A DNA stretch of 30,179 nucleotides from a virus: the IMG/VR virus record IMGVR_UViG_3300025892_000093, positions 1-30,179 of that record. One strand, written 5' to 3'. The position numbers were made by a program, and so were the translations under genes. Shown here one piece after another: positions 2,159-28,797 of the stretch (positions are counted from its first letter, which is position 1; each line of letters opens with the position of its first letter). The notes beneath the pieces are model-generated. The model saw only the letters and a program-made list of their open reading frames with translations, was not told the origin of the DNA and did no database searches.

Positions 2159-2946
2159 TATTCTACTTCGGGTGCATCTCTATCAATATAACCATCCGCT
2201 ATTGTAGTATTACTTCCTTGCGCTTTTTTAACAACATTAAATTGATCTATCACATTACCTTTATACATAGTAGATGAATCATCAAATGATGGATAATAAG
2301 TCTCTAATTCTACATTAAATGTTGTAGTTATATTTTGATCCGTATCATATGTGAAGTTGTATTTCTTATCATGGGTAATTGTTTCTGGAAATCTTAATTG
2401 TCCTGGGATTCTAATTCCTCGATATTGAAAATATGCAACCTCGTTTTTATAATAAAAATCAAATATTTTTTCTACAATCTTAAATGTTTTATTTAGGTTA
2501 TCACTTTTTATTTGTATTTGAAATGCTAAATCCATAGGTAAAGTTTTTAATCTTGCGGAGTAAGCTTTCATAACCTTTCTATCATTAAGTTGCTCGATTT
2601 CTTCTTGTTTAAATGTTCCTCTCACAAATGGATTAGTTATGTCGCCACTCTTGATTGCAAAATTATTAAGTGTAACTATTCCTCTTGGAAGTTGATCGTA
2701 GTTTCCTTCAGCGAATTCAGGATACTTACAACCATCTGGCATATCTATGAAGAAATCTTGCATGAATCCTCCAGTTCCTGCGTTGTTATATAAAAACGGG
2801 ACCTCATGTTTAGTTACAACGCCGTCTCTAACAAGATCTATTATTACTCTTCTATTGAGAACATCTAGGACCGCCAACGACGCATTTCTAAGAAAAACAT
2901 CTTGTGTATTCTTATTAATTATATTATTATGATCTGATGTTTGCAT
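2158..2946 (-). CDS. gp15-like tail terminator / sheath stabiliser
   Basis: This 262-aa protein is close in size to T4 gp15 (272 aa). The order of motifs matches the gp15 family: an early strand pair (LAVLDVLNRRVIIDLVRDGVV) leading to VPFLYNN, a P-R-x-I-x-L segment (LPRGIVTLNNFAI), a basic linker around KAYSARL, then PMDLAFQIQIKSDNLNKTFKIVEKIFDFYYKNEVAYF. That last stretch corresponds to the 'P..y.l.i..kn..d..qIlEqIlp.F.P.y' segment of the family. It ends with a RIPGQLRFPETI strand and a further beta region. Gp15 caps the finished tail and locks the last sheath ring before joining the head. The neighbouring tail-tube-like gene supports this reading. The match is by remembered pattern, so moderate confidence. 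Confidence 0.5.
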   Translation of the reverse strand: MQTSDHNNIINKNTQDVFLRNASLAVLDVLNRRVIIDLVRDGVVTKHEVPFLYNNAGTGGFMQDFFIDMPDGCKYPEFAEGNYDQLPRGIVTLNNFAIKSGDITNPFVRGTFKQEEIEQLNDRKVMKAYSARLKTLPMDLAFQIQIKSDNLNKTFKIVEKIFDFYYKNEVAYFQYRGIRIPGQLRFPETITHDKKYNFTYDTDQNITTTFNVELETYYPSFDDSSTMYKGNVIDQFNVVKKAQGSNTTIADGYIDRDAPEVE

Positions 2947-2960
2947 ATATTCTTATTTAT

Positions 2961-3620
2961 TTAAAAAAACTCGTCTAACACTTCGTATGTTATGTTTGTA
3001 AAACCATCACCTATCCATCTCCACTTTTCATTTTTTACGCTAATAACGTTGTTAATTACTTTGTCCCAAACTTCAGGATTATGTTTAGCATAATATACTA
3101 GTGCAGATTTGACAGAGGTTTCATATCCCAGTTGTCCATGCAATGATGAAATTCGATATAAGGATATTCCGTCCATTACGGTAGACTTCCAAGTAGTCAC
3201 CCATAACCCTTTAACTATTTTTAGATCCACTTTACTCATTTTTTCACGAATAAGTCTAACTAGTGATGTAATAGCCGGCTTAATACACTGAGTAAGCACA
3301 TCGGTGTATACAGTTTCTAATTTAAAATTAGATGGATCGTCTATTAGTTTTCGATAGTGTATTATCCTCGCATTGTGATTAGCTAATAGTATTATTGGTT
3401 TAATAGTCTTTTTTATATAAGTTATATCGTCTGACGTAAGCTTAACATTCTTATTTGATAACAGTTTATCGATATCCTTTTCTATAAGCATATCCCAATC
3501 CCTTTTTTCAGACTCTGGGTTTCGCTTAAGCATTTCATGGTAGCTCATCTCTTTAAATTTATTAATATCTACTTTAGATTCAGACTCATTCAAGCTATGA
3601 TAAGATAATATATGTTTCAT
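2961..3620 (-). CDS. Unknown 219-aa protein with capsid-targeting-like N-terminus
   Basis: I do not recognise the main body, which is mostly alpha-helical and basic, with runs such as DDITYIKKTIKPIILLANHNARIIHY and a Trp-rich end (WRWIGDGF). No membrane segment or catalytic motif stands out. The start is notable: MKHILSYHSLNES resembles the short capsid-targeting peptides of T4 internal head proteins (MKTYQEFIAE-type), which the prohead protease cuts after an L/I-x-E site. Here L10-N11-E12 is followed by S13. If this holds, the protein would be packaged in the head or processed there. It lies 5 bp downstream of the 715-aa gene and 14 bp before the gp15-like gene, so it is expressed with the tail block. 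Confidence 0.6.
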   Translation of the reverse strand: MKHILSYHSLNESESKVDINKFKEMSYHEMLKRNPESEKRDWDMLIEKDIDKLLSNKNVKLTSDDITYIKKTIKPIILLANHNARIIHYRKLIDDPSNFKLETVYTDVLTQCIKPAITSLVRLIREKMSKVDLKIVKGLWVTTWKSTVMDGISLYRISSLHGQLGYETSVKSALVYYAKHNPEVWDKVINNVISVKNEKWRWIGDGFTNITYEVLDEFF

Positions 3621-3625
3621 TAATG

Positions 3626-5773
3626 TTACCTATTTTTTGCGATATATGGAAGGTTTTGTTGAGGTTTACAGTTATCGATTATTAATAACGTAGACTCATC
3701 TTTTAAATACTGTTGACTTAGTATAAAATCATGATCTTCTTCTCGCAACATTGTATTGAATAATCTTACGTTTGCTATCCACATATTTGAAGATGGAATA
3801 TAATATTTTTCTCCTCTTAGATTAAAACCTAATTCAGGAATATCTTCTATGCTTTCAAATACTTTTATAAAATCATTGTGGTTTGTGATATCTGCAATAT
3901 CCTCCTTTACGGAATATATATAAATTCCACACTGTTTAAATTCGTTAGATAGTGATACTGCAACTGCATACCATTCTCCACTGTTGAAATTAGAAATAGT
4001 ATGTGTTTTAAGAGTTCCGTTAATTTGAACGGTTATTGTAAAATCTCCATTCTTAACATCTCCTACGTATTTAGCAAACTGTCCTGATATTTTAAGACCT
4101 AGTTGAGATTCATTATCGTATCCATTTAAGAATTGAACTGCATCACTTGCTGTATTTAAGTTAAACATTGAAGTGTATGATAGGTTACAATTTGATTCCT
4201 TATCGAAAATAGGTTCAGCATTATATATTATAGAGCTCTCTCTTATTTTAAAGCTAACTGTGTCTTTTCCATCCACATTTAATCCGTGCATTATATTCTT
4301 TTGTTTCTTATATGAAAGATCTGAATATGCTTCAATTCTAACGTATCTGCCTGAATCAGAACTTCCGTCATGATTTGGAATAGTATCAATCGGGCCTCTT
4401 ACTCTAATAAATTTAGAATCACTCCCAAACACGTTTTTATCAGAAGTAATTAATTCGTTGTTTTTCCAAGATTTATATGGTCCTGAATCTTGATATGCGA
4501 GTATAACATCATAATCACTAGGGATCCCCTCATTTAAACTTGGCAGAGTTTCAACATTGATACTTTGGCTAGTAAGAACTGTGTCCTGTGTGATCTCATA
4601 TGATGTAACCTGTGAAACTATTGCACTAAGATCATAGTAATTTTCAATAAGACTTGCATGATTAAAGTTATATTTCAAAGGTCTTATTCTTAGGTCTGGA
4701 TGGATAGCACTTCTAGATGGATCGAATCTAGTACTTATTGTATTATACTGTTGAGGCATTGTAGCATCCGCCGTGTCATTCTCAACCTCATCTTTAAATA
4801 GTTCATCTGCAGACTGAATTACGTTATCTAGGAATGTCCTAGAATCATCAGTAAGTAGCATGTCGATGTTTGGATTGTATTTTTGTAGGTTAACTTTCCA
4901 ATACGTTGCCTCCATCATAAATCCTCTGTGTAAATAACTTCCAGCGACTTCATACATTCGGTTTAACAGTGGAAAGTATAAAAAGTCCCGATGTCTAGGA
5001 TGAGATCCTTTTCCGAATATGGATTGGAAATAATTATGATCTAAGTGAACCTCGAATGGAGATTGGAAATCAAGTCCAAATTCTGTATATTTAGGATCGT
5101 TACTCGGGAAAGAATTCTTAGGAACTAGAACCTTTACACATTTACGATCTACATTTTTAAATAGTGTCCATTCTTTAAATATAAAATCTCCGCTATTAGA
5201 CTCTGGTACTGTTCTGAAGTAAACGACTTCGTGCCCAAACATTTTATTGGTGTAGAATGAAAGCTCTTTAAACATTCCGATTGCGCTATCAACCTGGTAT
5301 GGTTTAAAACTAGGATCGGTGTTTACAATTAAGGTTGTGCACTTTTCATCTGAACATATTAAAACAGGAGCGTAAGTATTTGATATTGGATCAGTTGTTG
5401 AGAATCTCAACTTAACTTCATTTATTTCTATAATTCCACCGAGTTCGTCGTTGGTTCCGTTGTCGTATTCATATTTTAACTCAAAGTAGAATTCTTGATT
5501 GTCTTCTAATATAATATCATCAGCAGAACCTAAATTTCCAGGCTCAACGTTGTACCATAGTGACCAGTCTAATTTATTTCTTGAGTATCTAAAATATCTT
5601 TTTAAGTATGATAAGTCAAGCCCTGGAGAACTCAATATTATATCTTCAATCATTTCGGTTAATCCCGTAATATTGCTAACCGGATCATCAGTAGTAAATA
5701 TTCTATAATTTTTGCTAAAGGTTAAAGAATTTTTATCTGGATTTATTAATAATTTCAACGTAATATTAGCCAT
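3626..5773 (-). CDS. Large structural protein with C-terminal laminin-G-like domain
   Basis: This 715-aa protein is the first gene of the leftward unit read from the divergent region at 5774-5877. The N-terminal half has a distinct block around FEVHLDHNYFQSIFGKG ... FLYFPLLNRMYEVAGSYLHRGFM ... EATYWKVNLQKYNP, of the kind seen in baseplate-associated proteins of large phages. From about residue 505 the sequence looks like a concanavalin/laminin-G sandwich: FTITVQINGTLKTHTI, SGEWYAVAVSLSNEFKQCGIYIYS, and the closing MWIANVRLFNTMLREEDHDF. Such domains often bind glycans or proteins. I infer a virion protein, probably on the baseplate or tail. Its exact counterpart in T4 is not evident. Confidence 0.6.
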   Translation of the reverse strand: MANITLKLLINPDKNSLTFSKNYRIFTTDDPVSNITGLTEMIEDIILSSPGLDLSYLKRYFRYSRNKLDWSLWYNVEPGNLGSADDIILEDNQEFYFELKYEYDNGTNDELGGIIEINEVKLRFSTTDPISNTYAPVLICSDEKCTTLIVNTDPSFKPYQVDSAIGMFKELSFYTNKMFGHEVVYFRTVPESNSGDFIFKEWTLFKNVDRKCVKVLVPKNSFPSNDPKYTEFGLDFQSPFEVHLDHNYFQSIFGKGSHPRHRDFLYFPLLNRMYEVAGSYLHRGFMMEATYWKVNLQKYNPNIDMLLTDDSRTFLDNVIQSADELFKDEVENDTADATMPQQYNTISTRFDPSRSAIHPDLRIRPLKYNFNHASLIENYYDLSAIVSQVTSYEITQDTVLTSQSINVETLPSLNEGIPSDYDVILAYQDSGPYKSWKNNELITSDKNVFGSDSKFIRVRGPIDTIPNHDGSSDSGRYVRIEAYSDLSYKKQKNIMHGLNVDGKDTVSFKIRESSIIYNAEPIFDKESNCNLSYTSMFNLNTASDAVQFLNGYDNESQLGLKISGQFAKYVGDVKNGDFTITVQINGTLKTHTISNFNSGEWYAVAVSLSNEFKQCGIYIYSVKEDIADITNHNDFIKVFESIEDIPELGFNLRGEKYYIPSSNMWIANVRLFNTMLREEDHDFILSQQYLKDESTLLIIDNCKPQQNLPYIAKNR

Positions 5774-5790
5774 CTGATTGAATTTTATAC

Positions 5791-5806
5791 TTTTTATTAT
5801 TTATTC
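5791..5806 (-). promoter_or_regulatory. Candidate late promoter (-10 like), leftward
   Basis: On the - strand this reads GAATAAATAATAAAAA, 17 bp ahead of the ATG of the 715-aa gene (22 bp from its AATAAATAATA core). The same 16 bases occur on the + strand at 5845-5860, making a perfect inverted repeat. The core resembles the T4 late promoter element TATAAATA, recognised by gp55, and a gp55-like gene is present in this window. Function is inferred from position, symmetry and that pairing. Confidence 0.55.
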
Positions 5807-5822
5807 ACATTCGATTAAGTAA

Positions 5823-5843
5823 ACTGAACTTCTTTTTTTCAGT
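5823..5843. repeat. Small hairpin between the divergent promoters
   Basis: ACTGAA (5823-5828) and TTCAGT (5838-5843) form a 6-bp stem with a 9-base pyrimidine-rich loop. It lies in the 38-bp spacer between the two promoter-like arms, so it could be an operator or simply part of a leader. It is off-centre relative to the larger inverted repeat, and chance is possible. Confidence 0.3.
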
Positions 5844-5844
5844 A

Positions 5845-5860
5845 GAATAAATAATAAAAA
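5845..5860 (+). promoter_or_regulatory. Candidate late promoter (-10 like), rightward
   Basis: GAATAAATAATAAAAA, identical in all 16 bases to the leftward copy at 5791-5806, lies 17 bp before the ATG of the lone + strand 267-aa gene. The equal spacing on both sides argues that both copies serve as start signals and not as a terminator hairpin. Assignment to the gp55-like sigma factor is inference. Confidence 0.55.
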
Positions 5861-5877
5861 CAATTTACAAATTAAAA

Positions 5878-6681
5878 ATGGGTGATACACATATATTAGA
5901 TCCACTTTGGATAACAAAGGGAAGTAGCGGATTAGATCCAGAATATTCAAAATATATTCTGCTTGCTGCAAATAAAAAATATAGAGATAAACTAAATGAG
6001 GGAGATACTTCAGATTTTTATGAAATACTGTTTCACTCTCTTAATCTTAATAATCTTGCAGTCGAAGGAAGTATGTTTAATTTTAACATGACACCGGTAT
6101 GGGACGATCCTAAGTTATTAGAGATAAGAGATCAGTTACGAGAAATATATCAATTACCAGACGATCTAGTTGAAATATTTAAAAACGCTAATTTCTTATT
6201 AACCGGCTTGATGTTAGATTATTTAGACGCTATGCTAGAATTAACTGATATAACTAAGTCGTATTTCGTAAACGGCTCGATTCACAGAGAGAAGGAAATA
6301 TTTATAGTTCTAAATTCAGAAGGAAGTATGGAATATGACATTTGGAAATTGCGAGCGGATCGTAGGTTCAAGTTCGGACATAAACTGGCTCGAATTAAAT
6401 CTATTGAATTAGAAGAACTCAAAGAGAATGCCCTGCATGATGCAATTGTAAAGGATGGAAATAAAGATCTATTAAACATGGACGCGGACGTAAACGTATT
6501 ATTCGTGGTAATGGAAGATCAATTAGATGCTGAAAAATTAGCGTCAACCGTTGCATCTTCTTTAATATTCTCTAGGGGAATTACCGAAGGAATTAAGTAT
6601 GAACCTAATATTTTATTAGAATTATACGATCTTCTTAGTAAAGAAAGAGTGCTTCCGTTTACAATGAGATCAATGATTTAA
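5878..6681 (+). CDS. Unknown 267-aa protein, inverted within the late block
   Basis: This is the only rightward gene between the flanking leftward structural genes. It starts at an ATG behind an A-rich leader (AAATTAAAA) without a Shine-Dalgarno sequence and ends 2 bp before the convergent stop of the S74 fibre gene. The product is acidic, mostly helical and soluble. It opens with MGDTHILDPLWITKGSSGLDPEYSKYILL, has a hydrophobic helix (NANFLLTGLMLDYLDAML) near residues 103-120, then a strand-rich part (EKEIFIVLNSEGSMEYDIWKLR) and an ending VLPFTMRSMI. I do not recognise the family. Sharing a copy of the same candidate promoter suggests expression with virion genes, so a structural or assembly role is plausible but unproven. 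Confidence 0.7.
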   Translation: MGDTHILDPLWITKGSSGLDPEYSKYILLAANKKYRDKLNEGDTSDFYEILFHSLNLNNLAVEGSMFNFNMTPVWDDPKLLEIRDQLREIYQLPDDLVEIFKNANFLLTGLMLDYLDAMLELTDITKSYFVNGSIHREKEIFIVLNSEGSMEYDIWKLRADRRFKFGHKLARIKSIELEELKENALHDAIVKDGNKDLLNMDADVNVLFVVMEDQLDAEKLASTVASSLIFSRGITEGIKYEPNILLELYDLLSKERVLPFTMRSMI

Positions 6682-21789: not shown

Positions 21790-22779
21790 TTAATATATCT
21801 CAAGTCCTACCATATTAGTAATAATGAGTCTGTCATTAGTGTCAGTGTCAACTATATAATTAAAGGTAGCGTTGTGTCCATATTCAAGTAATGCTTGACT
21901 TTTAAACATAGCATCTAAATTATGATTAACTGCTAACTTTTGGCCCTCTGCAACTAGACCGTGGTGCATTATAATTGTGCCCGTTGTATTTTGATTAGTT
22001 CCTGGATCAATTGATACTGGGGGTGGAGTTGATTCCAAATTTATATTTGAAATAATACTAGATCCTCCTGAATTTTCAATTACATCTACTATATGAATAG
22101 TGAATGTAGTATTTGCAGCAGGGGGATTTGATGCATCAAAATCAACTATTAATGGGAATCCTAATATTGTTCCATTAAATCCGGTTCCTGTCCATACTTG
22201 AGTAGGTCCAACCGTTGTCTCGGCTTCAAGTGTAACGTAAATATTTTTATTAGATGTACTAGTTAATGTAATAGTTCCGGTTGCATACTCGTTATATATA
22301 CCAGCTGATTGTCTTTGCATTGTTACTGATACCGTCTCCTTTGATTCAACTATAGATTCATTATATTGCAGTTTATTAGAAATAGTGGTAGGTCCGCTAA
22401 GAGTTGCAGAGTTGGTAGTTACAATATCATTAACTTCAGCACTGTTTGCTTGTATATCTAAATCTACAGTTAAGTGATCTACATTTAATACGGATTCATC
22501 TGATCCGTTTTTAGATAATCTAGAAATTATCTGATTTGGAATTCCAGTTTGGAATACAAATCCTCCATCTTGTATAATGATATCCGCTGTGCGAAGGTTA
22601 TTTATTGGATTGTCTGCTCCAATTGAGAGTGTGTTGGTATCAACCTCAAAATTATTTAAAAAGTCTTCTAACTTATCCTTCAATAGGAGCACGTTAGAGT
22701 TGTGAATTTGTGCAATATCAACAACGAAGTCGGTTTGCAATATTTCTTGAATCGGTAGATCTACTGGTGTAAACGCCAT
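21790..22779 (-). CDS. Structural protein, 329 aa, beta-rich
   Basis: The first 50 residues are helical (VDLPIQEILQTDFVVDIAQI, then LLKDKLEDFLNNFE). After that the sequence is Thr/Ser/Asn-rich beta-strand with fibre-like motifs such as DIQANSAEVNDIVTTNSATLSGPTT, and a C-terminal segment (GHNATFNYIVDTDTNDRLII). This helix-then-beta layout is common in short fibres or fibre-attachment proteins. A promoter-like sequence lies just upstream, at about 22791-22808, so it probably starts the transcription unit that runs through the S74 fibre. No family is recognised. Confidence 0.55.
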   Translation of the reverse strand: MAFTPVDLPIQEILQTDFVVDIAQIHNSNVLLLKDKLEDFLNNFEVDTNTLSIGADNPINNLRTADIIIQDGGFVFQTGIPNQIISRLSKNGSDESVLNVDHLTVDLDIQANSAEVNDIVTTNSATLSGPTTISNKLQYNESIVESKETVSVTMQRQSAGIYNEYATGTITLTSTSNKNIYVTLEAETTVGPTQVWTGTGFNGTILGFPLIVDFDASNPPAANTTFTIHIVDVIENSGGSSIISNINLESTPPPVSIDPGTNQNTTGTIIMHHGLVAEGQKLAVNHNLDAMFKSQALLEYGHNATFNYIVDTDTNDRLIITNMVGLEIY

Positions 22780-22790
22780 TTTAATAGAAT

Positions 22791-22808
22791 TATTTTATTT
22801 TATTTATC
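22791..22808 (-). promoter_or_regulatory. Candidate late promoter ahead of the 329-aa gene
   Basis: On the - strand this reads GATAAATAAAATAAAATA. The GATAAATAAAA core (22798-22808) is 18 bp before the ATG and resembles the AATAAATAATA element seen at 5795-5805 and 5846-5856, with a few differences. In such AT-rich DNA chance matches are common, so confidence is limited. Confidence 0.4.
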
Positions 22809-22820
22809 GATTTGATTGTT

Positions 22821-25800
22821 TTAGTTTAAGAGTTTAAGTTTTCTTCTATTCAATCTAGTCTCTATGTTTTTTATATAGTTTTCCTTAGCCATAACTGTTA
22901 CCATCTGATTAATTTCGTTTAGGTAAACGTTTCCTCGGTTGTCATGTATTTCTACATGTATTGTAAATCTTCCAAGATCTTTGAATTTCCAAACAAAGAA
23001 TGGAACAGATCTAACTTTTACTTTTTCACCAGTGTCAATATCAGTTAGTGTCCATATATATTCTAGTTTTCCGTCTATATTATTAACTGCAAAGAACATG
23101 GTTGTGTTCTCTGGAATATTGAATGATGATTCAAATACTTTTATATCATTTATATTGAAAGAGTTTTGATCTATGACAGTTGGAAGATATCCTATTTGTT
23201 TATTATTTTCAAATTTCCAATACTGTTTGTCTACCCAAAAGCTAGGATCCTGTACTGCTCCACTTACTATATCCGATGTTTTTGCTAATAAAAACATAGT
23301 TTCTTCGTCAAGCATAGGATATGTAGATTTAAGGTAATTGACTAACCTACTTGAATATATTTCTCGTGGTAAAAAGAATGTATATTTATCAACATCGGAT
23401 AACCCGGATCCAGGGCTAGATGTTCTAGGAGAGGGACTTCCTGAATTAATACCATCGTCCATTAGTATATGATACATTTCCTTGCTTAGATATTCCGCTT
23501 GAGCATGTATAACATATTGGTTATCTGATTTTCTACCTTCTATTATCTCATAGTTAAACAGTTGTATTCCCGGGTGTTCACTAGCATTCAATATATCTAT
23601 TAATTCTTCATTTGTATTAAAATTTGGTATTACATAGGGACTGAATAGTGAAATCTGAATAGTTTTTCCAGGTCTAGGGTCTCTTAGATAAAATCCTGCA
23701 TTAAAATCATCTACATATACTAAATCTGAAAGTCTCATAAAAAATAGAGACTTCATTGTCATATCGTCAAAATCCTGAAGTGTTAGTGGCTCGTTTGATT
23801 CACCGAGTCCCCAGTATAATTTTTTAGGATGATTTTGAGAAGGGTCATTATATGGGACATATGTAGCAGAGCTTTCATTATATAACTCAACGTCATACAT
23901 ACTTTGTCCCATTCCATATCGATTTTTATAGAACCATGTAAATTCAAGTAGCTGTTTATCTATATCTACTTCACTTATTGCAGCCTCATTATCTAATACA
24001 TTTATCTTAGGAAAATATTGCGGACTTGTTCCAAAATCCTTTAACTGTATATTTTTTAAATTATCAAGTTGGTAGTTGAATTTATCTTCTAATCTAGTTA
24101 TTCCTACTATTTGAGCAACTTGATCACTTTGAACTGTTATAAATTTACTATACGCATTTGAATTTCCGTAAAAATCATGCAGTTCGACAGTTAGTCGGTA
24201 AGTTCCATGAAACGGTAAAAAATGTGGAAGTTGCCATAGGTCTTCAATTTTTCCTCTATATTCGAATGAGTATGGATTCGGGGCATCCTTTTGAATTCTC
24301 CAGGTAATTTCATAGAAGTTTTTAAAGTCTATATTTCCTAGGGTATAGTGTGGGTCATATGATCCTATTGAGTCTAGATCTTCAAATGTGACTCCCTTAA
24401 GGGTTTGCATTGTAAATTTCTCATTATGTACATTAAAAATACAAGCAGCTCCGATAATTCTTTCTGGGTCATCTCCATCTTCCCATTTCATTCTAGCTCC
24501 AATATCAGGAAACTGTTGATCTTTAATTTCTTTGTAAAAGTCCTTAATATACTTTACCATTTCTGGTATCTGATCTGCTGTATAATATTGATTGTAATCA
24601 AACGGATTATAAACTCCTGGATTAAGAATAGTTGTTCCAAAATCTCCACCATTAGGATGCTCTTTTCTTAACAAAGGATTAAGAGACCTAATCTTAAAAT
24701 CTACACTATCATCAGGATATGATTGAAGTTCTGAGTATTCGTTAAGGTTAGTATCTAGTATATTTGTCTCATCTGACCAAAATTTTATTGTAATTTTTTG
24801 AAAATATATAAACTCCCCTATTATATCTTTTATTTTTACATTAATTGGTAAAAATTCATTTTTAGCTTTATCTTTTAGTCTGTTTAATTTATAAAATATT
24901 TCATCAACCGTAAAATCAGTGGTTTCAACTATTTCTGGAATTCCATCGTCGTCAAATTCATCAGTAGCTTTGGTAAACTGATATACTAATGCTAAGCACT
25001 CGGTTTTTCTAAATTGATTTCCGTGCTTAATTCTTTTGTTCTTATCCAGAATGTTCATGTTATCGATTTTACCGTCATCTAAATAGTCAGTAATATCTAC
25101 CATGAATTGCTTATTATAATATGGAGAATTATTATTAATATTTAACCAGTACTCCTTTATTCCAAGAACGTCTTTATATCCTAATAGATTTACAAAGTTA
25201 TTAAGACCTTTATATGTTCCTATATAAGGGTATACTTGGTCTTTATTTACTAATAAATTCTTGCGTGCTAAGTTTAATTGAGTCCAGTCAGGATATGCTT
25301 CTTTTATATCATATTCCTTTAAAATATTGGCGTCTTCTCTATTGAATTTAATTCCAAAGTTTTTAGCCCATACTCCAAATCTTTCATCTTCATTAACTCC
25401 TTCTCCATAGAATTTAATTTCAGCTATTTTAGTTTTTAAATTAGGACTAGTCGCATCTAAAATATACATGCACAGAGTTCTTTCATATTTTACTTCTTCA
25501 GTAGGATTAAATGCGATATTTAATTGAAGTGGTAATTTGATATCAATAGAAGACCCTCCTGAAACTGGAATTAGATCATCATATGATACCTCTACTGATT
25601 CTTTCTTGTTTATAAAATAATTATTAAGATCATAATCCTTTTCAACCTCATATAACATGAGCTCATTTTCAATCTCGTTATTTAACCATTCGAATTTAAT
25701 AGACGTTCCAGGATCTATTATTGGGAACTTGTAGGTGCCTGAACTATCTTCTAATATGAAAAGATTTTCATTGTCGTATAGAAATGTTGAAATCTCTTTG

Positions 25801-25898
25801 AAGAATATAATACCCTCCCAACAAGATTTCTCCGCATTCCAATCTAGATTTAAGTTCTTTCCGAACTTATCGTAGAAGTTTAGATTCTGGATTACCAT
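22821..25898 (-). CDS. Baseplate wedge-like protein with PKD-like end (1025 aa)
   Basis: About residues 175-255 show a pattern typical of tail protein I / baseplate wedge assembly proteins: RFGVWAKNFGIKFNREDANI, LKEYDIKEAYPDWTQLNLAR, VYPYIGTYKGLNNFVNLLGY, then IKEYWLN. The 'PY-x-GT-x-xG-x-x-NF-x-x-LLGY' core is the part I rely on. The central region is long and Asp/Tyr-rich. An Ig-like stretch lies around the phrase LPFHGTYRLTVELHDFYGNS, and another, PKD-like, near residues 920-1010 (LEYIWTLTDIDTGEKVKV, FKDLGRFTIHVEIHDNRGNV). It is the first structural gene after the late sigma factor, with its own promoter-like element upstream. I infer a baseplate protein, but the precise T4 equivalent is uncertain. 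Confidence 0.5.
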   Translation of the reverse strand: MVIQNLNFYDKFGKNLNLDWNAEKSCWEGIIFFKEISTFLYDNENLFILEDSSGTYKFPIIDPGTSIKFEWLNNEIENELMLYEVEKDYDLNNYFINKKESVEVSYDDLIPVSGGSSIDIKLPLQLNIAFNPTEEVKYERTLCMYILDATSPNLKTKIAEIKFYGEGVNEDERFGVWAKNFGIKFNREDANILKEYDIKEAYPDWTQLNLARKNLLVNKDQVYPYIGTYKGLNNFVNLLGYKDVLGIKEYWLNINNNSPYYNKQFMVDITDYLDDGKIDNMNILDKNKRIKHGNQFRKTECLALVYQFTKATDEFDDDGIPEIVETTDFTVDEIFYKLNRLKDKAKNEFLPINVKIKDIIGEFIYFQKITIKFWSDETNILDTNLNEYSELQSYPDDSVDFKIRSLNPLLRKEHPNGGDFGTTILNPGVYNPFDYNQYYTADQIPEMVKYIKDFYKEIKDQQFPDIGARMKWEDGDDPERIIGAACIFNVHNEKFTMQTLKGVTFEDLDSIGSYDPHYTLGNIDFKNFYEITWRIQKDAPNPYSFEYRGKIEDLWQLPHFLPFHGTYRLTVELHDFYGNSNAYSKFITVQSDQVAQIVGITRLEDKFNYQLDNLKNIQLKDFGTSPQYFPKINVLDNEAAISEVDIDKQLLEFTWFYKNRYGMGQSMYDVELYNESSATYVPYNDPSQNHPKKLYWGLGESNEPLTLQDFDDMTMKSLFFMRLSDLVYVDDFNAGFYLRDPRPGKTIQISLFSPYVIPNFNTNEELIDILNASEHPGIQLFNYEIIEGRKSDNQYVIHAQAEYLSKEMYHILMDDGINSGSPSPRTSSPGSGLSDVDKYTFFLPREIYSSRLVNYLKSTYPMLDEETMFLLAKTSDIVSGAVQDPSFWVDKQYWKFENNKQIGYLPTVIDQNSFNINDIKVFESSFNIPENTTMFFAVNNIDGKLEYIWTLTDIDTGEKVKVRSVPFFVWKFKDLGRFTIHVEIHDNRGNVYLNEINQMVTVMAKENYIKNIETRLNRRKLKLLN

Positions 25899-25916
25899 TA
25901 TATATTGCTTTAGTTT

Positions 25917-25929: not shown

Positions 25930-26337
25930 TTAAATGCTGTAAATAGCTCCGTCACCTGTTGTACTTAAAGATATAAAATCTAGAGGCTCATCATCCTGTA
26001 GTCCGGTTTTCTTATGTATTGCTTTCCACTGTTTAGCGTACCCATTTTTGCATACCTGAGTAAAATAAGCAAATGCGTTTGGATTTTCAGATTTAGCTGG
26101 ATCAAATCCCCTCCAGTATTTAAGACAGTCTAACAGTGCAGACTGAATACAGTCTTCTCTGTCTCTATAATCTTCATAATACATTTTATTAACTGCTCTG
26201 TTAGCCAGTGCTATAAAACAAGAAATAGCGAATTTAGATAGCTCGTCATTGTTTTTGCATTCTATTATCGAGGCAGTAAATTCTTTATTATTTACATAAT
26301 GCTTGTCGCCTCTCTTCTTTCGTTTCTTTGGTTCCAT
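25930..26337 (-). CDS. 55: T4 gp55-like late transcription sigma factor
   Basis: This is a 135-aa, strongly basic-ended protein. After MEPKKRKKRGDKH it carries YVNNKEFTASIIECKN, closely resembling the YVNNKELLQAII start of T4 gp55. The core has a sigma region-2 look: DREDCIQSALLDCLKYWRGF, then DPAKSENPNAFAYFTQVCKNGYAKQWK, matching the '[21 protein letters not shown]' part of gp55. In T4, gp55 binds core RNA polymerase, recognises TATAAATA and, through a C-terminal SLDFLYE motif, touches the sliding clamp. Here residues 117-123 (EPLDFIS) resemble that clamp motif but are followed by 12 more residues. It is about 50 aa shorter than T4 gp55. It sits downstream of the RuvC-like gene and ahead of the structural block it would activate. 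Confidence 0.88.
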   Translation of the reverse strand: MEPKKRKKRGDKHYVNNKEFTASIIECKNNDELSKFAISCFIALANRAVNKMYYEDYRDREDCIQSALLDCLKYWRGFDPAKSENPNAFAYFTQVCKNGYAKQWKAIHKKTGLQDDEPLDFISLSTTGDGAIYSI

Positions 26338-27816: not shown

Positions 27817-28797
27817 ATGAAAAAAGTAGAAAATGTCGGTATTATCGGACAGGGATTTGTTGGCACTGCGGTAATGGAAAAGTTTAGACGATCATTTAAA
27901 GTTTATGCGTACGATAAAGATTCAACTAAGTCTATAATAACAACCCCATCTCTTGATAAAGATCCAGTAACAATTGCAAAAGTAGTTGAAAATTGTGAGG
28001 TTATATTTATATGTGTTCCAACTCCAATGTTTGAAGATGGAGAATGTGATATTCGCATAGTAGAAACCGTATTAGAAGATATTGCAAAAGAGGCAGAGTT
28101 CCAAAATAAAAAGGTTATTACCATTATCAAATCAACCATACCTCCAGGTACTACCAAAAAACTAAATGGATTATCAAATAAAGTTGGTGTAACATTTAGC
28201 CCAGAATTTTTAACTGAAGCGAATGCTACTGCTGACTTCGAGAATCAAACTAGAATTGTTTTAGGTATTGATTACGTAGAATACATTGAACCTATTAGAA
28301 ATATGTTTATAAGGGTATTCCCCAATGCCAATTTAATAATAATAAATTCAAACGAGGCCGAAATGACCAAGTATGCAACTAATTTATTTTTAGCAACTAA
28401 GGTTAGTTTCTTTAATGATATATATTCTTTATGTGAGAAACTTGACATTGATTACAATAATGTAATAGAAGCAACAATGCACGATCCGCGAATTGGAAAG
28501 TCTCACTATGATGTACCTGGCCACGATGGAGACAGGGGATTTGGTGGGCATTGCTTCCCTAAGGATTTACAAGCAATATTGTCTATAGCTATGAAATTTA
28601 AACTTGCACTTCCAACTATTACTGGAACTCACGTTACTAATATGATGGTTAGAAAAAATAAAGATTGGATGGACATGGAAGGAAGAGCGGTATCTACTCG
28701 ACCTGAACTCGATTCTGAAATAATAGAAAAATATCCAGCTAACGTTGAAGGATCTTTTGATTTTAATAACTATAATAGTATAGATGTAAAAAAATAA
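27817..28797 (+). CDS. UDP-glucose/GDP-mannose dehydrogenase family protein lacking the C-terminal domain
   Basis: The N-terminal NAD-binding fold is clear: NVGIIGQGFVGTAV with G11-x-G13-x-x-G16, then VIFICVPTPM, IIKSTIPPGTT and SPEFLTEANA. The central domain has EMTKYATNLFLATKVSFFND (likely catalytic Lys185) and GFGGHCFPKD with the nucleophile Cys246. These enzymes oxidise the sugar C6 alcohol of UDP-glucose or related nucleotide sugars to a uronic acid in two NAD-dependent steps. The protein has 326 aa, whereas family members usually have about 390-450. The last Rossmann-type domain, which completes the nucleotide-sugar site, is absent, replaced by a short tail (about 265-326). It may use a partner or a different substrate. 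A role in surface-sugar modification or a DNA-sugar precursor is possible but unproven. Confidence 0.85.
   Translation: MKKVENVGIIGQGFVGTAVMEKFRRSFKVYAYDKDSTKSIITTPSLDKDPVTIAKVVENCEVIFICVPTPMFEDGECDIRIVETVLEDIAKEAEFQNKKVITIIKSTIPPGTTKKLNGLSNKVGVTFSPEFLTEANATADFENQTRIVLGIDYVEYIEPIRNMFIRVFPNANLIIINSNEAEMTKYATNLFLATKVSFFNDIYSLCEKLDIDYNNVIEATMHDPRIGKSHYDVPGHDGDRGFGGHCFPKDLQAILSIAMKFKLALPTITGTHVTNMMVRKNKDWMDMEGRAVSTRPELDSEIIEKYPANVEGSFDFNNYNSIDVKK

Follow-up and report, generated by a model that had tools for sequence, protein, structure and literature searches.

The region between positions 5773 and 5878 of the window, as we call the whole 30,179-base stretch of viral DNA analyzed here, is best explained by two separate, opposed late promoters of the T4 type, both carrying the box R(-13)ATAAATAAY and read by the host RNA polymerase together with a gp55-like factor; we put the probability of this reading at about 0.88. 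The assignment to twin T4-type late promoters is strongly supported by sequence comparison, from which we also infer the use of the box by the gp55-like factor, the actual start sites and the late timing.

In the proposed mechanism, each box would act as a lone -10-type element, devoid of a -35 element, and would be recognized by the host RNA polymerase carrying the phage gp55-like factor; factors of the gp55 type lack a -35-binding domain. Transcription would start at the purine located 12 nt past the first A of ATAAATAA, that is, at 5792 on the - strand and at 5859 on the + strand, and the perfect repeat described below would consist of two near-consensus copies of one promoter placed back to back. 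With no more than 27-43 bp from box to box, initiation complexes assembled on them would probably exclude each other on steric grounds.

Twin boxes and other boxes in the window

Both arms of the repeat read GAATAAATAATAAAAA, identically, from 5806 to 5791 on the - strand and from 5845 to 5860 on the + strand; they are separated by a 38 bp spacer (5807..5844), and a gap of 17 bp divides each arm from the ATG it faces, at 5773 and 5878, respectively. This is the window's sole perfect 16-bp inverted repeat whose arms are at most 80 bp apart, and none at all was found in 200 shuffles of it (100 first-order and 100 third-order Markov). The perfect repeat and the equal spacing, as reported in the preliminary description, are both confirmed. 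The predicted late promoter on the - strand, G-AATAAATAATAAAAA-G (5790..5806), has its A(-13) at 5805 and its box at 5805-5797, while the one on the + strand (5845..5861) has its A(-13) at 5846 and its box at 5846-5854. Both predicted leaders are 19 nt long and contain no Shine-Dalgarno sequence.

The - strand promoter would serve a gene of 715 codons (3626..5773, - strand), whose product matches the head closure Hc2 family phrog_679 (1.6e-6) and, slightly short of the cut-off, the T4 neck protein family PF11649 (8.8e-5); it will be referred to as the neck gene (T4 gp14-like, head closure). The + strand promoter faces a 267-aa gene (5878..6681, + strand). The window also encodes a gp55-like late sigma factor of 135 aa (25930..26337, - strand; phrog_234 late sigma factor, 7.4e-18), along with a weakly matching gp15-like protein (2158-2946), a UDP-glucose/GDP-mannose dehydrogenase (27817-28797), a RuvC-like protein and an exonuclease. 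A near-identity search of the window against a phage collection gave no match. Its protein relatives are found in Tenacibaculum phages pT24 and PTm1, Chryseobacterium phage MA9V-1, Flavobacterium phage MaF61, PAU and the Lak phages; since these are large T4-like phages of Bacteroidota, a Bacteroidota host is likely for the window as well. PAU, named as a Sphingomonas phage, has had its host reassigned to Sphingobacterium, as the title of a 2013 paper by White and Suttle indicates (cited in PMC10537231).

Similar cores had been noticed before two further genes, and they are real: GATAAATAAAATAAAA (22808-22793, - strand, predicted +1 at 22795) precedes the 329-aa gene (21790-22779), and GATAAATAATACAAAC (25928-25913, - strand, predicted +1 at 25915) precedes the 1025-aa gene (22821-25898), both as predicted late promoters. 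A scoring matrix trained solely on the genomes of two relatives, the window being excluded, gave its four highest scores, among about 60,000 window positions, to the boxes of the neck, 267-aa, 329-aa and 1025-aa genes, the best of them falling on the 329-aa gene box. A candidate late box of a short-spacing class discussed below, AATAAATAAG (2946..2961, - strand), lies 14 bp from the ATG (at 2946) of the gp15-like gene, with a matrix score of 9.2. The core AATAAATAATA, when searched in the window with one mismatch, is not over-represented (5 matches against 8.7 expected by chance), and for this reason the window alone could not settle the question: its signal resides in the position and orientation of the matches, not in their bulk count.

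Enrichment and anatomy of the box

Two complete relatives, of 270,962 and 253,137 bp, were picked because they encode the neck gene and not for the motif; genes were called by a simple ATG-only caller, and 8-mers were counted de novo within 60 bp upstream of the ATGs. ATAAATAA turned out to be the top upstream 8-mer in both, being found before 55 genes in each, against 2.4 and 2.6 expected. It occurs 3.1-3.2 times per kb in these upstream stretches, compared with about 0.04 in the sense strand of coding regions and 0.00-0.01 in the antisense strand, corresponding to upstream versus coding odds ratios of 77 and 68 (Fisher p < 1e-65). An equal frequency of the motif inside coding regions, proposed at the outset as evidence against the promoters, was thus not observed in these two relatives. 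Two contigs of the window's own clade feature a similar enrichment, with odds ratios of 38 and 37. When run on T4 as a control, the same de novo procedure returned TATAAATA, the T4 late box, indicating that it recovers known late promoters. In the two relatives, AATAAATA and GATAAATA outnumber TATAAATA. We found no open-access paper describing a RATAAATAAY box in these phages.

The anatomy of the box was derived from 82 sites with ordinary leaders, all containing the required word ATAAATAA. The sequence ATAAATA occupies positions -12 to -6, preceded at -13 by a purine (A 50%, G 45%) and followed at -4 by a pyrimidine in 81% of the sites. At the T4 start position, 12 nt downstream from the first A of ATAAATAA, 97% of the sites have a purine (A 80%, G 17%); the two columns that follow are rich in A, as is the whole stretch from -2 to +6. 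No conserved -35 element could be recognized in these sites, the information content being at most 0.14 bit at each position from -44 to -28.

T4 late promoters, where TATAAATA is read by gp55 and activated by gp33 and gp45, are the natural term of comparison: their 8-bp box lies about one turn ahead of the start and is followed by A+T-rich DNA, and they have no -35 element (PMC2988020). The boxes described here share with them ATAAATA at -12 to -6, the missing -35 element, the A+T-rich downstream DNA and a predicted +1 about one turn downstream, in addition to a gp55 homologue, virion and lysis genes behind the boxes and the use of both strands. They differ in having A or G, where T4 has T, at -13, A at -5 and a pyrimidine at -4, in the lack of a recognizable gp45 and in the short-spacing class, to which none of 29 T4 sites belongs. 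RATAAATA agrees with the T4 box at 7 of 8 positions, and A(-13) occurs at 9 of the 50 listed T4 sites (PMC2988020). With the box in the T4 register, and A(-13) already known as a variant in T4, there is no shift of the consensus. The preliminary description, which had proposed a phage-specific late promoter with the shifted consensus AATAAATAATA, is therefore strongly supported as to late promoters of T4 type, by the enrichment, the virion and lysis genes, the gp55 homologue, the fixed purine at the predicted +1 and the missing -35 element, and wrong about the shift: the T4 register is retained, with A or G replacing T at -13. A relaxed first box position is also known from the late promoters of cyanophages S-PM2 and Syn9, which use NATAAATA, likewise upstream of T4 late gene homologues (PMC2984593); those phages, however, infect other hosts, whereas here the first position is mostly a purine and the box extends to AAY.

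Genes behind the boxes and the gp55-like factor

In the relatives, the box precedes dozens of genes, virion and lysis genes among them. Those of the 271-kb relative include members of endolysin, chitinase, head closure, baseplate wedge, tail and tail-fibre families, along with many genes with no match. A second upstream motif, TAGTATAAT / TTTAGTATAATAAC, is found before replication-type genes in both relatives and also in PAU; genes preceded by TAGTATAAT match single-strand binding protein, clamp loader, helicase loader, protease, nudix and tRNA nucleotidyltransferase families. The split between the two gene classes is only qualitative, because it rests on 25 families listed per set. The relatives lack a box immediately upstream of their major capsid gene; the 253-kb one carries a box ahead of the next gene upstream. 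A search for the tail sheath with PF04984 gave no match. Proteins encoded by boxed genes of the 271- and 253-kb relatives often start with a common tag (MKHLKLFEEF, MKHIKLFE, MKLIKDFNQFITE or MKNLKGFTDFISES), present on roughly 15-20 proteins per genome, as counted by eye, and recalling the sequence that targets internal head proteins to the T4 capsid.

The gp55 family (phrog_234) was found in 11 of the 12 records searched, T4 among them. The homologues of PAU, LR756500 and pT24 are much diverged; in the alignment, the C-terminus of the gp55 homologues differs from that of T4, and the clamp-binding SLDFLYE is not kept. The T4 models of the gp45 clamp itself, PF02916 and phrog_223, found no match in the relatives, which may reflect divergence. 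MaF61 gave no gp55 match across its full record, though its top upstream word, GATAAATA, is of this kind; the top words are TATACATA in PAU and ATATATAA in LR756500. These three phages share with the window homologous neck and other proteins and a T4-like box before many genes, but their boxes (TATACATAT in PAU, GATAAATAT in MaF61 and AATATATAA in LR756500) have drifted from RATAAATAAY.

In principle, the box might be read by a host sigma factor, the primary sigma of Bacteroidota, rather than by the phage gp55-like factor. Host-type promoters do appear to be in use in this group of phages, since the top upstream motif of pT24, TATATTTG, fits the host-like TAnnTTTG -7 element. RATAAATAAY, however, does not fit TAnnTTTG and is not accompanied by a -33 element, the partition of the box and of TAGTATAAT between virion or lysis genes and replication genes argues against a host factor, and the phage encodes its own gp55 homologue. 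We consider recognition by host sigma very unlikely, although it fares slightly better than the other alternatives.

The short-spacing class

The distance between box and ATG ranges from 12 to 59 bp and defines two groups, one at 23-39 bp and the other at 12-15 bp, the latter peaking at 12. For about one fifth of the boxes the ATG is 12-14 bp away; with a spacing of 12, the predicted +1 falls on the A of the ATG itself, and this class would therefore give leaderless mRNAs. The spacing is conserved in some genes: in one orthologue family it is 12-14 bp in 18 of the 24 distinct upstream regions, which share little other sequence, and for the gp4-like head-closure gene 15 of 19 show a value of 12, the box there overlapping conserved upstream sequence. 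The base preceding the ATG is T in 73% of the sites with 12-14 bp spacing and never A, as expected of a pyrimidine-purine start, whereas in the leadered class it is A in 56%. PAU has four sites at 11 bp, and in the two relatives TAGTATAAT likewise has a group of sites 12 bp from the ATG.

The same data bear on a different reading of the A-rich stretches, as translation-initiation enhancers of Bacteroidota mRNAs (Kozak-like A at -3/-6) and not as promoters. Such hosts do without Shine-Dalgarno sequences and prefer A upstream of the ATG (PMC6847099), and the leaders described here are indeed A-rich. Yet the sequence of the box is fixed although its distance from the ATG varies over the whole range just given, the conserved purine keeps its position relative to the box and not to the ATG, and A is never found immediately before the ATG at the shortest spacings, all of which makes an enhancer highly improbable.

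Most Flavobacterium johnsoniae transcripts (87%) have leaders longer than 10 nt (PMC6847099), so that leaderless phage mRNAs would depart from the host pattern. What is new here is the short-spacing class, with the leaderless mRNAs it would imply, and the drifted boxes carried by cultured relatives. The broader picture, in which RATAAATAAY would govern virion genes and TAGTATAAT replication genes as a two-class system, a sizeable subset of both classes would be leaderless and the late box would have drifted between related phages, appears reasonably probable when taken as a whole. If this is true, leaderless mRNAs would be a regular part of expression in these phages, and would provide a direct test of how ribosomes start on phage mRNAs in hosts lacking Shine-Dalgarno sequences; the drifted boxes would form a natural series from which the gp55-promoter code could be read. 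Late boxes differing between relatives would, more generally, allow a comparative reading of promoter recognition by gp55-type factors. The predicted promoters would bring large uncultured phages, whose hosts are probably Bacteroidota, within the range of T4-type late transcription, and the promoter matrix could be used to sort many unassigned genes into virion/lysis and replication classes.

Conservation of the pair

The neck gene is encoded at 60 loci, 30 of which, having distinct upstream DNA, were used for counts. ATAAATAA is found 23-32 bp before the neck ATG in 29 of the 30, and an opposing copy in 25. Measured from A(-12), the ATG of the neck gene is 23-32 bp away and that of the opposing gene 26-31 bp. 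The equal 17-bp spacing is thus rejected as a rule, since the distance varies on both sides among relatives, and the perfect identity of the arms is likewise not conserved. The two A(-12) positions lie 43 bp apart in the window; this distance ranges from 39 to 43 bp within the clade to which the window belongs and from 27 to 29 bp in the second clade. The base preceding the box is A in the former and G in nearly all members of the latter.

On this comparison, the arms are two separately evolving predicted promoters and not one palindrome. A single palindromic element, such as an operator, a replication origin or a cruciform, would account for an intergenic perfect repeat far beyond chance, but is the least probable reading of all and was rejected, as arm spacing is not conserved (the clades differ by about 14 bp), loci L008 and L013 keep the neck-side box but lack the opposing arm, and single copies precede dozens of other genes.

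The opposing gene, the 267-aa gene in the window, is the same gene, in the same place, across the relatives, and is kept also by L008 and L013, which lack its box. Its protein matches no PHROG or Pfam family at E 0.001, gave no phage tblastn match and has no solved relative; the AlphaFold model is confident (pLDDT 87), without a meaningful PDB match. Relatives outside this phage group were thus not found by PHROG, Pfam, phage tblastn or structure searches. The protein and its orthologues share an invariant LDPxW close to the N-terminus.
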